Source: an uncultured Flavobacteriaceae bacterium
Lineage (GTDB): Bacteria > Bacteroidota > Bacteroidia > Flavobacteriales > Flavobacteriaceae
Assembly: GCA_947500435.1 (NCBI GenBank)
Contig: CANMRV010000006.1
Coordinates: 248,001 to 312,000 of the forward strand
DNA: 64,000 nucleotides
Direction: 5' to 3'
Of the stretch, positions 55,711 to 62,312 are shown in pieces. Below the pieces are notes generated by a model. That model searched no databases. It was given only the letters and a program-made list of their open reading frames with translations, and was not told where the DNA came from. The translations under genes were made by a program, and so were the position numbers. Positions within the stretch are counted from its first letter, which is position 1; every line of letters begins with the position of its first letter.

Positions 55711-56475
55711 CTATTTGATTTTTTTAATGAAATTGCCAATGGAATCGACTCCGTGCTCAGTTAAATGTTTAATAAAAGCGGAACCAATAATTGCTCCTTT
55801 TGCATTTTTAGTGGCCGCTTGAAAAGTCTCTTCGTCCTTAATTCCAAAACCAACAATTTGCGGGTTTTTTAAATTCATGTTTGCAATACGTTCGAAGTAC
55901 TCGGCTTGTGTATTTCCAAATCCTGACTTGGAGCCTGTTACACTTGCCGAGCTTACCATATAGATAAATCCGTCAGAAGCCGCATCAATTTGATGAATAC
56001 GCTCATCGCTAGTCTGTGGCGTAATCAAGAATACATTGATAAGTCCGTATTTTTTGAAAGTTGCTTCATAATCAGCTTGATATACATCTAAAGGCAAATC
56101 AGGCATGATAATTCCGTCTATACCAATCTCATGACATTTTTTGCAGAAAGCTTCAACACCATATTGTAACATTGGGTTGAAATAGCCCATTACAATTAGC
56201 GGAATGGAAACGGTTTTGCGAATGTCTTTGAGTTGCTCAAAGAGTTTTTCGGTGGTCATTCCATTTTTCAAGGCGGCAGTAGAGCTATCTTGAATGGTTG
56301 GTCCATCAGCTAAAGGGTCACTAAAGGGCAGACCGATTTCAATCATGTCAATACCGTTTTGTTCTAAATCTTGAATGATTTTAACGGTGTCGTTTATTGA
56401 TGGATATCCAGCTGTGAAATATATGGAGAGGAGTTTTTTATCCTCTTGTAGCTTCTCATTAATTCTATTACTCAT
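55711..56475 (-). CDS. trpA: Tryptophan synthase alpha chain
   Basis: A 254-residue TIM barrel cleaving indole-3-glycerol phosphate to indole and glyceraldehyde 3-phosphate. Catalytic Glu and Asp: MIEIGLPFSDPLADGPTIQDSS (about residues 38-59) carries the Glu of IEIGLPFSDP; GIIMPDLPLD (about 122-131) carries the second site; VSSASVTGSKSGF (about 163-175) and GFGIKDEE (about 202-209) bind phosphate. Its start overlaps the trpB stop by one base, matching the tight alpha/beta enzyme coupling. Confidence 0.96.
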   Translation of the reverse strand: MSNRINEKLQEDKKLLSIYFTAGYPSINDTVKIIQDLEQNGIDMIEIGLPFSDPLADGPTIQDSSTAALKNGMTTEKLFEQLKDIRKTVSIPLIVMGYFNPMLQYGVEAFCKKCHEIGIDGIIMPDLPLDVYQADYEATFKKYGLINVFLITPQTSDERIHQIDAASDGFIYMVSSASVTGSKSGFGNTQAEYFERIANMNLKNPQIVGFGIKDEETFQAATKNAKGAIIGSAFIKHLTEHGVDSIGNFIKKIK

Positions 56476-57656
56476 TATGCCAACTTAAAGTAGTCTATAT
56501 ATGTATTCAAATCCTTGTCCCCTCGCCCTGAAAGACTGATTACCACAACATCATCTAATTTAAATTTCTTATGCTCAAAAATGGCAAACGCGTGCCCGGT
56601 TTCTATAGCTGGAATAATTCCTTCCAATTGTGAAAGTTCTAGTCCGGCAGTCATGGCTTCATCATCTGTTGCGGAATAGAATTCCGCCCTTCCTGATTTG
56701 TGCAAATGCGAATGCATCGGACCAACTCCAGGGTAATCTAATCCTGCGGAAATGGAATAGGGTTCTGTAATCTGTCCATCTGTAGTTTGCATCAACATGG
56801 TTTTGCAACCGTGAATAATCCCCACTTTCCCCAAAGCAGAAGTAGCTGCACTTTCACCGCTTTCAACACCTTTTCCTGCAGCTTCAACTGCTATGATACC
56901 AACTTCTTCTTCATCTAGGAAATGATAATACGTTCCCGCTGCGTTACTTCCCCCACCAATACAAGCTACCACATAATCAGGATTTTCACGGCCTTCTTTT
57001 TCTTTCAATTGCCATTTGATTTCTTCAGAAATTACCGATTGAAAACGAGTCACCATATCAGGGTAGGGGTGTGGCCCAATGGCTGAACCAATAATGTAAT
57101 GCGTATCTACAGGATTATTTATCCAATCACGAATCGCTTCGTTGGTGGCATCTTTTAATGTTCGACTTCCTGAAAGTGCTGGTCGAACTTCGGCTCCTAA
57201 CATTTTCATACGTGCTACATTAGGTGCTTGCCGAGCAATATCGATTTCGCCCATATAGACAATACATTTCATGCCCATCAATGCACAAACGGTTGCGGTT
57301 GCAACGCCATGTTGTCCGGCTCCCGTTTCAGCAATAATTCTGGTTTTACCTAACTTCTTGGCCATTAGAATCTGACCAATTGTATTATTTACTTTATGTG
57401 CTCCAGTATGATTTAAATCTTCTCGTTTGAGATAAATTTTACATCCGTGTTTTTCGGAAAGTCGTTTTGCAAAGTAAAGTGGCGAAGGCCTGCCTACATA
57501 GTCTTTGAGCAGTTGATGAAATTCCTTTTGAAAGGATTCCTCATACATGATTTCTAAATACTTTTGGCGTAACTCTTCTACATTCGGATAGAGCATTTCA
57601 GGAATAAAAGCGCCACCGAATTCTCCGTAATATCCTTTTTCGTCTGCGTGATACAT
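56475..57656 (-). CDS. trpB: Tryptophan synthase beta chain
   Basis: A 393-residue PLP enzyme joining indole and serine. PLP lysine in [13 protein letters not shown] (about residues 81-93), acid region [12 protein letters not shown] (about 106-117; with the catalytic Glu), phosphate loop [10 protein letters not shown] (about 226-235), and SGRGDKD near the end. N-terminal [15 protein letters not shown] is typical. Lies directly before trpA (overlap one base) and 61 bases after trpF; that gap holds a palindromic repeat element that could weaken expression downstream. Confidence 0.97.
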
Positions 57657-57673
57657 AACAATTATAATTTTAA

Positions 57674-57746
57674 TTCCCTCCTAATAAGGAGGGTTAGGGA
57701 GTTGTAAAACACACCCCTCAATCCCCTCTTTCTAGAGGGGAGGTTA
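57674..57746. repeat. REP-like palindromic element between trpB and trpF, reaching into trpF
   Basis: Two hairpins: CCCTCC-TAATAA-GGAGGG (57676-57693) and CCCCTCT-TTCT-AGAGGGG (57723-57740). The second is inside the trpF coding sequence, whose last codons it supplies. Same style as the element at 19515-19560. Such palindromes are dispersed in intergenic DNA of flavobacteria; in an operon they may affect mRNA stability or translation. Confidence 0.7.
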
Positions 57747-58413
57747 ATATGTTTTTAAACTTTTTCAATTTTTCAATATTTTTTAATCCCGGTTCGTCCT
57801 CAAATTTACTGTTCACATCGATAACATGGCAATACTGGGCTTCTGGTCGTTTCATGAACTCCTTAATAGAATCAATTTCTTCCAATCCAATACCACCACT
57901 TAGAAAATAGGGTTTGGTAGAAGGGTAATCTTTCAATACTTCCCAATTGAAAACATAGCCATTGCCACCTGGAAGCTTTCCTTTGGTATCAAACAAATAG
58001 AAATCACATACATCTTCAAATTGATATAATTGACCAAAATCGAAATCATCTTTTATTGAAAATACTTTTATGATTTTGACATGGGGAATTTGAGTTTTTA
58101 GCTGGTCACAAAAAGCCGGACTTTCCTTACCATGTAATTGTACCAACAACAGCCCGTACTTTTTTACTTTCTCCTGAATTATCACTATCCTTTCATCAAC
58201 AAAAACGCCTACTTTTTTAACCCCGTGAGGAATAGATGGTAAATCTCCTTCAAAATAGCGTTTGGAAGGCCCCCAGAAAATAAATCCTAAATAATCGGGT
58301 CTTAGAGCTGCAACCTCGGAAGTATTTTTATTCATACCACAGACTTTGAGCTTTAGCTCAGCCAAACTTTTGGTGATAGGCATTTCGTCTTTATTGGTAT
58401 AATAATAGTCCAT
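57718..58413 (-). CDS. trpF: Phosphoribosylanthranilate isomerase with repeat-derived C-terminus
   Basis: A 231-residue TIM barrel for the PRA to CDRP step. Catalytic Cys in KLKVCGMNKNTSE (about residues 21-33), RPDYLGFIFWGPSKRY, LVQLHGKES (about 89-97), and the catalytic Asp in YLFDTKGKLPGGNGYVFNW (about 137-155), then LSGGIGLEE. The last nine residues, LTSPLERGD, are encoded by the palindromic repeat at 57723-57740; the natural family end would lie before. The N-terminus (MDYYYTNKDEMPITKS) is also about 18 residues longer than usual; a later start is possible. Six bases after trpC. Confidence 0.92.
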   Translation of the reverse strand: MDYYYTNKDEMPITKSLAELKLKVCGMNKNTSEVAALRPDYLGFIFWGPSKRYFEGDLPSIPHGVKKVGVFVDERIVIIQEKVKKYGLLLVQLHGKESPAFCDQLKTQIPHVKIIKVFSIKDDFDFGQLYQFEDVCDFYLFDTKGKLPGGNGYVFNWEVLKDYPSTKPYFLSGGIGLEEIDSIKEFMKRPEAQYCHVIDVNSKFEDEPGLKNIEKLKKFKNILTSPLERGD

Positions 58414-58419
58414 TTGGTA

Positions 58420-59199
58420 CTATAATTTTTGAATGAATTTCAAGGCACTTTTTCCAGGATTATCTTTCTTCATAAAGTTCTCTCCGATTAAGAATCCTTG
58501 ATAATCGTATAGCTTTAAATCTTGTATCGCTTCAATTGAACTGATACCACTTTCAGAGACTTTAACAAAATCATCAGGAATTAGTTGAGACAACGACTTG
58601 CTTGTTTCAAGACTTACTTCAAATGTTTTTAAATCTCGATTGTTTACACCCAACATATCCAAACTTGGCATGATAGATTTATGTAATTCTTCTTCATTGT
58701 GAACTTCTAACAAAACATCTAAATCTAGACTTTTGGCCAGTTCCGAAAAGGTTTTGATTTCTTCTTTGGATAAAACTGCAGCGATAAGTAAAATCACATC
58801 CGCCCCATGGGCTTTCGCTTCGATGATTTGGTATTCATCAATAATAAATTCTTTGCGAAGTAAAGGCATGTCAGCCGATGCTCTTGCTAGCTGTAAATCT
58901 TCCAATGAGCCCCCAAAATACTTGATGTCGGTTAAAACACTCATTCCACATACTCCTGCTTTTTGGTAGCCTTTAGCTACTTGACCCACATTGGTATTTT
59001 GGTTGATTGTCCCTTTGGATGGAGAGCGTCTTTTATGTTCAGCGACGATTCCCGTTTTGCTGTTACGAAGGGCACTGGCCAAGGAGAAAGTTTCTCTTGT
59101 GAATAAGACAGAAGACTCCAATTGCTGGATTGGAATAAGTGATTTTTTTAAATCAACCTCTTTGTATTTGTCTGCTACTATTTTGTCTAGAATGTTCAT
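58420..59199 (-). CDS. trpC: Indole-3-glycerol phosphate synthase
   Basis: A 259-residue TIM barrel closing the indole ring. Catalytic Lys and phosphate sites: GIVAEHKRRSPSKG (about residues 50-63), VLTDIKYFGGS (about 88-98), LRKEFIIDEYQIIEA (about 112-126, Lys and Glu), LEVHNEEEL and NNRDLKTFEV (about 188-197), SESGISS (about 218-224). It is not fused to trpF, unlike in enteric bacteria; overlaps trpD by four bases. Confidence 0.96.
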   Translation of the reverse strand: MNILDKIVADKYKEVDLKKSLIPIQQLESSVLFTRETFSLASALRNSKTGIVAEHKRRSPSKGTINQNTNVGQVAKGYQKAGVCGMSVLTDIKYFGGSLEDLQLARASADMPLLRKEFIIDEYQIIEAKAHGADVILLIAAVLSKEEIKTFSELAKSLDLDVLLEVHNEEELHKSIMPSLDMLGVNNRDLKTFEVSLETSKSLSQLIPDDFVKVSESGISSIEAIQDLKLYDYQGFLIGENFMKKDNPGKSALKFIQKL

Positions 59200-60188
59200 C
59201 TACTTAACTCTTGTAGTTTCTTTAAAGCTTTCAATCCGTTGCCACTTCGCAAAGACTCTTTTGCTTTTTCAAAGCCGTCTTTCAAACTACTATTCTCGAC
59301 TGTTGAAATTGCAACTCCTGCATTAGCGCAAACCACGTTATTTTGAGCTTCCGTTCCTTTTCCTTGTAAGACGTTCAGGAAAATCTGAGCGGATTCTTCA
59401 ATACTATCTCCGCCAATAATTTCAGATTGTTGTATCGATGTAACTCCGAAGTCGGAAGGGGTTATCATTCCCTCGGAATTGTTGGAAATAGTTTTTGTAT
59501 TTCCTGTCAAGGAGATTTCATCATAACCGTCTAAGGCGTGCAGCACGGTAAAATTCTTGTCTGTGTTTTGATAGAGATAGCCGTACATACGGGCTAATTC
59601 CAAATTAAAAACACCAACCATTTGGTTCTTCGGGAAAGCCGGATTCACCATTGGTCCCAACATATTGAAAAAGGTTTTTACGCCCAATTCTCTTCTAATA
59701 GGAGCGACATTTTTCATGGCCGGATGGAATAGGGGAGCGTGCAAAACACAAATTCCCGCCTTATCAATGGACTTCTCTAAAAAGCTTGCTTCATTACTGA
59801 ATTTAATACCCAGGAATTCCATCACATTACTGCTTCCACATTTTGATGAAACTCCGTAATTCCCATGTTTGGTTACCTTCACACCTGCACCAGCAGTTAC
59901 AAATGAAGCCAAAGTTGAAATATTAAAAGTGTCTTTTCCGTCACCGCCCGTACCACATAAATCTATGGGATTATATGCTGATAAATCTATTGCCAAACAC
60001 AATTCTAAAAGGGCGTCACGAAAGCCCTCTAATTCTTCGATAGTGATGCTACGCATCATATATACAGTCAAAAAGGCCGCAATTTGACTGGTGTTGTAAT
60101 CACCTTTGGCGATATTGACCAAAATCTGTTTGGCATCTTCCTTTGAAAGGATGTCGTGGTTGATTAATTTGTTGAGTGTTTCTTTCAT
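59196..60188 (-). CDS. trpD: Anthranilate phosphoribosyltransferase
   Basis: A 330-residue enzyme attaching the phosphoribosyl group from PRPP to anthranilate. Characteristic pieces: DLCGTGGDGKDTFNIST (about residues 76-92; PRPP loop), KHGNYGVSSKCGSSNVME (about 104-121), HPAMKNVAPIRRELGVKTFFNMLGP (about 153-177), and HALDGYDEISL (about 212-222). It is separate from trpG here. Overlaps trpG and trpC by four bases each. Confidence 0.96.
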   Translation of the reverse strand: MKETLNKLINHDILSKEDAKQILVNIAKGDYNTSQIAAFLTVYMMRSITIEELEGFRDALLELCLAIDLSAYNPIDLCGTGGDGKDTFNISTLASFVTAGAGVKVTKHGNYGVSSKCGSSNVMEFLGIKFSNEASFLEKSIDKAGICVLHAPLFHPAMKNVAPIRRELGVKTFFNMLGPMVNPAFPKNQMVGVFNLELARMYGYLYQNTDKNFTVLHALDGYDEISLTGNTKTISNNSEGMITPSDFGVTSIQQSEIIGGDSIEESAQIFLNVLQGKGTEAQNNVVCANAGVAISTVENSSLKDGFEKAKESLRSGNGLKALKKLQELSR

Positions 60189-60748
60189 TTTTTTAACCAG
60201 TTTTCAAGAATCTTTTTTCCTTCAGGAGTTAAAACAGATTCTGGGTGAAATTGTACTGCGCAAACATCGTATTCTTTATGTCTTAGCGACATTACTTGTC
60301 CGTTTTTATCGAAAGATGTGGCTTCCAAAACTTCAGGAAGATTCGGGTCTACTACCCAAGAATGATATCTGCCTACTTCGATTTCTTTGGGCATTCCTTC
60401 AAACAAAATATCATCTTTCACAATGTTTATTTTCGTTGCGATACCGTGATACACTTCATCTAAATTTATCAGCGAACCACCAAAAACTTCCCCAATAGCT
60501 TGTTGCCCTAAACAGACTCCAAAAATACTTTTGGTTGGCGCATATCTTGCGATAATCTCTTTCAGAAGTCCTGCTTCATCTGGAATTCCAGGTCCGGGGG
60601 AGAGTACGATTTTATCGAAAACATCAACTTCATCTAAAGTCAATTGGTCGTTTCGTTTTACAATTACCTCGCAATCTAAATCCTCTAAATAATGGACTAG
60701 ATTATACGTGAAACTATCGTAGTTATCTATAACTAGTATCTTCTTCAT
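60185..60748 (-). CDS. trpG: Anthranilate synthase component II (glutamine amidotransferase)
   Basis: A 187-residue class I glutamine amidotransferase that supplies ammonia to TrpE. Catalytic triad: Cys in SIFGVCLGQQAIGE (about residues 73-86), His and Glu in AVQFHPESVLTPEG (about 164-177); oxyanion loop LSPGPGIPDE (about 48-57). ATG at 60748 (MKKILVIDNYDSFTYNLV) is preferred to 60766, which would overlap trpE by 17 bases. It overlaps trpD by four and follows trpE by one base. Confidence 0.96.
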   Translation of the reverse strand: MKKILVIDNYDSFTYNLVHYLEDLDCEVIVKRNDQLTLDEVDVFDKIVLSPGPGIPDEAGLLKEIIARYAPTKSIFGVCLGQQAIGEVFGGSLINLDEVYHGIATKINIVKDDILFEGMPKEIEVGRYHSWVVDPNLPEVLEATSFDKNGQVMSLRHKEYDVCAVQFHPESVLTPEGKKILENWLKK

Positions 60749-60749
60749 C

Positions 60750-62147
60750 TTAAATCGTTTCAGCAATTTCTAAGGCTTTTGTCAAAGCACCCAGTTTGTT
60801 ATAGGTTTCCTGTAATTCGTCGTCAGCATTTGAGGCTGCTACTAATCCTGCGCCAGCTTGGTAATGCAATTCATGGTTTTTGCTGAGGAAGGTTCGAATC
60901 ATAATCGCGTGATTGAAATTTCCTTTGAAATCCATAAAACCAATAGCCCCACCGTAATAGCCGCGACTTGTTTTTTCGTATTTCTCAATGAGCTGCATCG
61001 CCATATGTTTGGGTGCACCACTTAAGGTTCCTGCAGGAAAAGTATCGGCTACCACTTTCATTGTTGGAATATCCTTTTTCTTTTTTCCGGTAACTTTAGA
61101 AACCAAATGAATCACATGAGAAAAGAATTGTACTTCTCGGTAATTCGTTACTTCGACCATGCTTCCGTTACGACTTAAATCGTTACGGGCTAAATCTACC
61201 AGCATGACATGCTCGCTATTTTCTTTGTCATCTTCAGTGAGTTGTTTGGCGAGGATGGCATCTTGTTCGTCGTTTCCGGTGCGTTTAAAGGTGCCCGCGA
61301 TAGGGTGGATTTCAGCGATTCCCTCCTTGACAATAAGTTGTGCTTCTGGAGAACTTCCGAAGATTTTAAAATCTCCATAATCAAAATAGAATAAATATGG
61401 TGACGGATTTACAGAACGCAATGCTCGATATACGTTGAATTCATCCCCTTTAAACCCTTGTGAAAATCTGCGGGAAAGAACGAGTTGAAAAACATCTCCA
61501 CGTTGGCAATGTTTCTTGGCTAATTCTACGTGTTCCTTATATTCTTCATCCTTTAGATTTGAAGCCGCATCTCCCTCCAAAGAAAAATTATAGGAAGCAA
61601 AATTCTTGACATTCAGAATCTGCTCGATTTCGGGAACATTGTTTTCGGTCTCAAAGCAGTTAGCAAAAATGTACGCCTCATTCTTAAAATGATTGATGGC
61701 AATGATGTTCTGGTAAACCGCATAATAGATATCAGGTATCTTAACGGAATTCTCTTTCTTAGAAAGCTTTACGTCTTCATAATACCGAACAGCATCATAA
61801 GACATGTATCCGAAGAGTCCGTTATCAATGAATTTGAAATCACTTTTCCCGCTATCAAATCGTTGACTAAAATCGTGAATGATATCTACTACATTGGTTT
61901 CCTCCCCGATCTGAATTTCATCCGAAGAACCATCAGGAAAATGCTGCGTTACAATTTCGTTCTCCACTTTTATTGAAGCAATTGGGTTGCAGCAGATATA
62001 GGAGAAGCTATTGTCATTAGCATGGTAGTCACTACTTTCAAGGAGAATGCTATTCGGGAATCTGTCCCTTATTTTTAAGTAGACACTAACAGGAGTGATA
62101 GTATCCGCTAGTATTTTCTTATGATGTGATTGTAATTGATATTTCAT
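60750..62147 (-). CDS. trpE: Anthranilate synthase component I
   Basis: A 465-residue chorismate-using enzyme, the committed step and feedback target. The tryptophan-binding motif LLESS is present at about residues 34-38, so feedback inhibition by Trp is likely. C-terminal chorismate domain signatures: GDVFQLVLSRRFS (about 210-222), FGSSPEAQL and IHPIAGTFKRTGNDEQ (about 265-285), EHVMLVDLARNDL (about 305-317), PAGTLSGAPK (about 359-368) and YYGGAIGF. First gene of a complete trpEGDCFBA operon; 129 bases downstream of the trpL leader ORF start. Confidence 0.96.
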   Translation of the reverse strand: MKYQLQSHHKKILADTITPVSVYLKIRDRFPNSILLESSDYHANDNSFSYICCNPIASIKVENEIVTQHFPDGSSDEIQIGEETNVVDIIHDFSQRFDSGKSDFKFIDNGLFGYMSYDAVRYYEDVKLSKKENSVKIPDIYYAVYQNIIAINHFKNEAYIFANCFETENNVPEIEQILNVKNFASYNFSLEGDAASNLKDEEYKEHVELAKKHCQRGDVFQLVLSRRFSQGFKGDEFNVYRALRSVNPSPYLFYFDYGDFKIFGSSPEAQLIVKEGIAEIHPIAGTFKRTGNDEQDAILAKQLTEDDKENSEHVMLVDLARNDLSRNGSMVEVTNYREVQFFSHVIHLVSKVTGKKKKDIPTMKVVADTFPAGTLSGAPKHMAMQLIEKYEKTSRGYYGGAIGFMDFKGNFNHAIMIRTFLSKNHELHYQAGAGLVAASNADDELQETYNKLGALTKALEIAETI

Positions 62148-62165: not shown

Positions 62166-62192
62166 TAAGGCCTGTCGTGATGACAGGCCTTA
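62166..62192 (-). terminator. trp operon attenuator hairpin
   Basis: TAAGGCCTGTC (62192-62182) and GACAGGCCTTA (62176-62166) form an 11-bp perfect stem with a 5-base loop on the minus strand, followed by CTTATTTTATAG. It lies between the trpL leader ORF and trpE, so transcription would end here unless the hairpin is blocked. It is GC-rich compared with its surroundings. Confidence 0.8.
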
Positions 62193-62219
62193 TATAGTTT
62201 TACTATAACGATGCTCAGC

Positions 62220-62276
62220 TCACGATGACTGTCGAGAGTTATTCCACCACCAAGTATTTGTATTTCTTGTTTTCAT
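62220..62276 (-). CDS. trpL: trp operon leader peptide
   Basis: An 18-codon frame on the minus strand, ATG at 62276, TGA at 62220-62222, translated MKTRNTNTWWWNNSRQSS. Three consecutive tryptophan codons (TGG TGG TGG) in an 18-residue peptide, in front of a terminator hairpin and trpE, is the classic arrangement of ribosome-mediated attenuation: when charged tRNA-Trp is short, the ribosome stalls on the Trp codons and changes folding downstream. The stop codon lies 28 bases before the terminator stem. I could find only short candidate pairings (GACAG with CTGTC) for an antiterminator, so that part is unproven. A promoter lies five bases upstream of the ATG. Confidence 0.85.
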   Translation of the reverse strand: MKTRNTNTWWWNNSRQSS

Positions 62277-62281
62277 TGGCT

Positions 62282-62312
62282 CAAATATAGAAATCATTTT
62301 TATAATCACCAA
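62282..62312 (-). promoter_or_regulatory. trp operon promoter
   Basis: On the minus strand TTG (62312-62310), 20-base spacer, TATATTTG (62289-62282), an exact match to TAnnTTTG. Only five bases lie between its final G and the trpL ATG, so the mRNA would start at or next to the leader start codon. Confidence 0.65.

Follow-up and report, generated by a model that had tools for sequence, protein, structure and literature searches.

In the trp attenuator of E. coli, the stalling of a ribosome at consecutive Trp codons governs the interplay of a protector (strand 1), an antiterminator (strands 2:3) and a terminator (strands 3:4). Attenuation by a leader peptide requires close coupling of transcription and translation, which has been little tested in Bacteroidota, organisms that initiate translation without Shine-Dalgarno pairing. 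Weinberg et al. 2010 list a Bacteroid-trp RNA (RF01692; PMC2864571). In Flavobacterium psychrophilum, which belongs to the same bacterial family as the host of the locus described here, this element has been reported upstream of the trp operon (PMC9723704, PMC6414381), a Trp attenuator has been discussed (PMC6414381), and strong clues for leader-peptide attenuation have been found upstream of amino-acid operons (PMC9723704).

The window examined in the present study is a 64,000-nt stretch of DNA from a marine-type flavobacterium of the Flavobacteriaceae. It contains an element that we interpret, with a probability of roughly 0.9, as a transcription attenuator controlled through ribosomal translation of a short leader peptide rich in Trp. 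The system is ordinary in kind, well supported in its mechanism and already present in Rfam. The initial annotation had placed a Trp-codon leader ORF at 62276-62220 (minus strand), a hairpin at 62192-62166 and trpE thereafter, an arrangement confirmed with correct coordinates by the sequence, the Rfam match and the folding z-score. The features are as follows:

62310..62312, minus strand: TTG, a promoter element of the -33 type, in the layout TTG-N20-TATATTTG-N5-ATG
62282..62289, minus strand: -7 promoter box TATATTTG (Bacteroidota consensus TAnnTTTG), ending 5 nt before the leader ATG
62277, minus strand: predicted transcription start, placed from the position of the -7 box and implying a 5' UTR of roughly 1 nt
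62182..62296, minus strand: match to Rfam RF01692 (Bacteroid-trp), 52.0 bits against a gathering score of 49, over the full model length (1-131)
62220..62276, minus strand: leader peptide ORF MKTRNTNTWWWNNSRQSS followed by a stop, 18 codons, with the TGA included in the coordinates
62244..62252, minus strand: three tandem Trp codons (TGG TGG TGG), the regulatory codons
62232..62238, minus strand: protector strand (strand 1) CUCUCGA, which in the free fold pairs with UCGUGAG
62213..62225, minus strand: antiterminator strand 2, UCGUGAGCUGAGC, conserved at the nucleotide level and predicted to pair with the terminator loop when the Trp codons are occupied
62193..62207, minus strand: small hairpin UAUAGU-AAA-ACUAUA between the antiterminator strands, folding in all states and missing in Flagellimonas-type relatives
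62175..62189, minus strand: antiterminator strand 3, GGCCUGUCAUCACGA, identified by folding and covarying with strand 2 in distant families
62166..62192, minus strand: intrinsic terminator hairpin (from the fold), 11 bp with a 5-nt loop AUCAC and the tail CUUAUUUUAU, its sequence including the loop conserved in relatives
60750..62147, minus strand: trpE, first structural gene of the operon, whose best NCBIfam match is TIGR00564 (trpE_most) at 433 bits, short of the curated cut-off of 518
55711..60748, minus strand: trpG, trpD, trpC, trpF, trpB and trpA in that order

Across the whole window, RF01692 was the sole Rfam family above its gathering score, and the enterobacterial trp element gave no match in the window. 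With the Bacteroid-trp RNA the locus shares its place before trp genes, the Trp-codon leader and an end-to-end model match; trpEGDCFBA follows directly downstream, and the relatives are Flavobacteriaceae. The RF01692 consensus differs in that it spans a hairpin around the Trp codons and ends inside the 5' arm of the terminator, without the complete terminator or the antiterminator found here, and the window clears its cut-off by only 3 bits. The family matched once in the whole genome and was present in 143 of 201 Flavobacteriaceae genomes; under stricter filters, a close relative of the same genus (G051) gave no RF01692 match although a complete leader (L122) is present. The published model, which lacks the terminator, seems under-sensitive, and the switch as delineated here gives an RNA model more complete than the present Rfam one. 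The expectation that such a system would be less documented in Flavobacteriia did not hold, given its cataloguing as RF01692 (PMC2864571) and its discussion for Flavobacterium (PMC6414381, PMC9723704).

Among approximately 1000 ATG-started short ORFs scanned on both strands of the window, the leader is the only one of 8-40 aa to encode WWW, and the trp leader region folds with a z-score of -3.7 (0 of 200 shuffles equal or better). An ORF encoding WWW lies upstream of trpE at 93/93 loci from relatives including Maribacter, Cellulophaga, Zobellia, Arenibacter and Flagellimonas, and is usually continued by the peptide pattern x-N-(L/S)-R-x-x-(S/T/A/P)-stop. The comparison with relatives proposed in the initial annotation thus found the Trp codons and the hairpin retained together at all 93 loci, which, with the existence of an alternative fold, supports its reading of the locus as ribosome-mediated trp attenuation. 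A GTG instead of an ATG apparently opens the leader ORFs of two loci (L201, L212). In F. psychrophilum the -7 box (consensus TAnnTTTG) occupies positions -12 to -5 relative to the transcription start and leaderless mRNAs are rare, at 5.5% (PMC9723704). By this spacing the start in the window is placed near 62277. The end of the -7 box is 4-8 nt from the leader ATG in about 89 of 93 relatives; 92 of them have such a box, and 88 of these carry a TTG 17-24 nt farther upstream. The promoter motif, located 5-7 nt ahead of the leader ATG in the window's clade, predicts a nearly leaderless leader mRNA there; some relatives outside it differ, with a -7 box further from the ATG and the antiterminator pairing UCGUGAA:UUCACGA.

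In DNA the hairpin reads TAAGGCCTGTC-ATCAC-GACAGGCCTTA, a perfect 11-bp helix, and is followed by the tail CTTATTTTAT, T-rich but imperfect, so that an intrinsic terminator with an imperfect tail stands between the leader ORF and the first gene. The imperfect U-tract, and a hairpin ending just 18 nt before the trpE start in the window, would also suit an element acting on translation by controlling access to the trpE start, as would the finding that Bacteroidota initiate without Shine-Dalgarno pairing and have A-rich regions before the start codon (PMC7366714). We nevertheless consider this very unlikely, since the distance from terminator to trpE ranges from 17 to 467 nt among 81 relatives and exceeds 60 nt in 14 of them, with an ORF intervening in several while leader, element and terminator are unchanged. 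This variation argues for an element that would act on transcription and not at the trpE start codon.

The initial annotation had offered two antiterminator pairings, both of which exist in the window. GACAG:CTGTC is not conserved: GACAG spans the codons CGA-CAG, for which relatives carry CGAAAA, CGACGC, CGACGA or CGATAA with the same GGCCTGTC arm, and this pairing was rejected. TCGTGA:TCACGA is conserved and is the functional candidate for the antiterminator. The core of strand 2, UCGUGA at 62225-62220 (minus strand), coincides with the final sense codon plus the stop, and the core of strand 3, UCACGA at 62180-62175 (minus strand), combines the terminator loop with the two adjoining bases of the 3' arm; the loop UCAC and the G of the 3' arm are kept in nearly all Flavobacteriaceae. 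Of 111 distinct Flavobacteriaceae leaders, 110 have a CGTGA that starts 25-29 nt past the first Trp codon (offset 28 in 101), and the remaining one has TGTGA. The offset of the stop codon from the first Trp codon takes values of 15, 21, 27, 30 or 36 in the same leaders, and in the eight where it is 15 or 21, upstream of the element, the element is kept as non-coding sequence (in one as TGTGA). Since leaders stopping earlier or later retain it at the same offset, CGTGA is not kept merely as a stop codon; a constant offset with a varying stop fits an RNA element beyond a Trp-stalled ribosome. Nearly all leaders of the 93-locus set end in an NCG codon followed by TGA, though encoding S, T, A or P, compared with a baseline in nearby genes of 13.5% G-ending codons among NCN and 8.9% TCG among Ser codons. 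A direct repeat CATCGT...CATCGT, also pointed out in the initial annotation, is present in the window but not conserved, its second copy being mostly CATCATTG or CACC in relatives, and is incidental.

Folding with and without a ribosome on the Trp codons, as the initial annotation had suggested, revealed the alternative fold. Nascent RNA up to the terminator loop plus two bases was folded for the 111 distinct leaders with a ribosome placed on a given codon, using E. coli footprint limits. Placing it on Trp codon 2 or 3 gave the antiterminator P>0.5 in 111/111 leaders; the count was 109/111 for codon 1 and 1/111 for the stop. In the window, the nascent fold with the ribosome on a Trp codon extends UCGUGA:UCACGA by GCUGAGC pairing with the terminator 5' arm (-12.3 kcal/mol). 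When no ribosome was placed, CGUG was paired with a protector strand of the AACUUACGA type in 81/111 leaders (P>0.5). The window itself is in a mixed state (protector P 0.37, pairing of the antiterminator with the loop 0.48), and with so weak a protector its behaviour without translation is not clear-cut. Pairing with the loop averaged 0.79 for real leaders and 0.26 with the spacer shuffled, the real value being higher in 111/111. In the complete RNA the terminator (-21 to -27 kcal/mol) is more stable than the antiterminator (-12.3 kcal/mol), so the switch would have to be kinetic, as is assumed for other attenuators.

Strand-pair counts made with anchored scripts showed compensated pairs outside the Flavobacteriaceae, with CGUGA:UCACG replaced by CGUAAG:CUUACG and GUUGGUUC:GAACCGAC by GUUGAUUC:GAAUCGAC; further strand pairs in the two distant families (one in the class, another in the order) are UCGUGAGAA:UUCUUGCGA and CAAAGUCUU:AAGACUUUG. 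Duplexes between a leader and its own terminator averaged -13.1 kcal/mol over all families compared with -11.9 (sd 0.12) when permuted (0/300 permutations reaching the observed value), and -13.6 compared with -11.4 kcal/mol (sd 0.42) outside the Flavobacteriaceae (0/1000), values that are to be read as support and not as true probabilities because the relatedness of the sequences inflates them. Together with the folding of 111/111 leaders, this covariation supports computationally a mutually exclusive antiterminator that stalling at the Trp codons would free. The pairing lies mostly within the loop of the terminator (UCAC), and each strand is almost constant in Flavobacteriaceae, as would also be expected of a loop contact (pseudoknot) in which CGUGA:UCACG assists the terminator. 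Such a contact has in our view only a slight chance of being correct: the pairing continues for one or two bases into the 3' arm, nascent RNA extends it to the 5' arm, its distance from the Trp codons agrees with exposure on stalling, and in the two more distant families it reaches into or sits in the terminator 5' arm, as for the last of the pairs given above.

Given this layout and its conservation, together with the covariation and the folds predicted for the three states, we infer the following course for an attenuator controlled by leader translation. Transcription would begin approximately 1 nt before the leader ATG. With ample charged tRNA-Trp, the ribosome would translate all three Trp codons, reach the stop codon and mask UCGUGA, and the terminator at 62192-62166 would halt transcription before trpE. 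When Trp is scarce, the ribosome would stall on the Trp codons and cover the protector CUCUCGA, leaving UCGUGAGCUGAGC free to capture the emerging GGCCUGUCAUCACGA (the 5' arm and loop of the terminator with the two bases that open its 3' arm), and trpEGDCFBA would be transcribed. If no ribosome is present, the protector would tend to sequester UCGUGAG, and the terminator would form. The likeness to E. coli trpL is that ribosome stalling at tandem Trp codons would read out a four-strand logic; the window differs in having three Trp codons instead of two, a strand 2 overlapping the stop codon, a strand 3 that takes in the terminator loop, and a leader mRNA predicted to be nearly leaderless and without a Shine-Dalgarno site. 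A TRAP-like trans-acting Trp-binding regulator or a T-box, both of which control trp genes in Bacillota, using the leader with the peptide incidental can practically be dismissed, since no T-box or other riboswitch family matched above its gathering score in the Rfam scan of the whole window and the WWW codons are constant at 93/93 loci, whereas the peptide's N-terminal residues differ among them.

More broadly, the Bacteroid-trp elements of three Bacteroidota families likely share a common antiterminator. Its strand would lie some 28 nt beyond the first Trp codon, either overlapping the stop codon or downstream of it, and would pair and coevolve with the loop of the terminator and the arm bases next to it; in the clade of Maribacter- and Cellulophaga-like bacteria it would be read by ribosomes loading on a nearly leaderless mRNA. 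What is added here is the antiterminator, conserved in all Bacteroidota families examined, together with its constant spacing from the Trp codons and its covariation with the terminator, as well as a predicted start that leaves the mRNA nearly leaderless; the complete terminator and the antiterminator may already have been described in the supplement of Weinberg et al. 2010. With its stall site defined, an element placed at a constant 28 nt and its antiterminator identified, the switch would provide a direct reporter of transcription-translation coupling.

A number of minor observations concern the surroundings of the attenuator and its occurrence elsewhere. Upstream in the window, a terminator-like hairpin (62366-62335) follows a YceI-family gene and sets it apart from the trp leader promoter. 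In five Flagellimonas and Muricauda loci (L080, L084, L088, L092, L100) a small ORF (MPAIRREKQLKKWNR...), which we presume may be a GIY-YIG-type endonuclease, separates the terminator from trpE; from its location, the attenuator would control that ORF too. Approximately 330-470 nt, with another short hairpin (e.g. ATTCCCGCCTTCGCGGGAAT), lie between attenuator and trpE in L034/L117 and L118. The possibility that the genome holds the element twice was discounted, RF01692 matching once and the spaced pattern CGTGAG...TCACGA occurring 4 times (this site included) compared with 3 for a reversed-pattern control, and runs of His codons in the genome yielded no leader-like ORF with promoter and terminator that could represent a sister histidine leader. 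One genome (G566) carries two Bacteroid-trp leaders (L186, L195) approximately 5 kb apart on a single contig (C6), which suggests two separately attenuated trp units.
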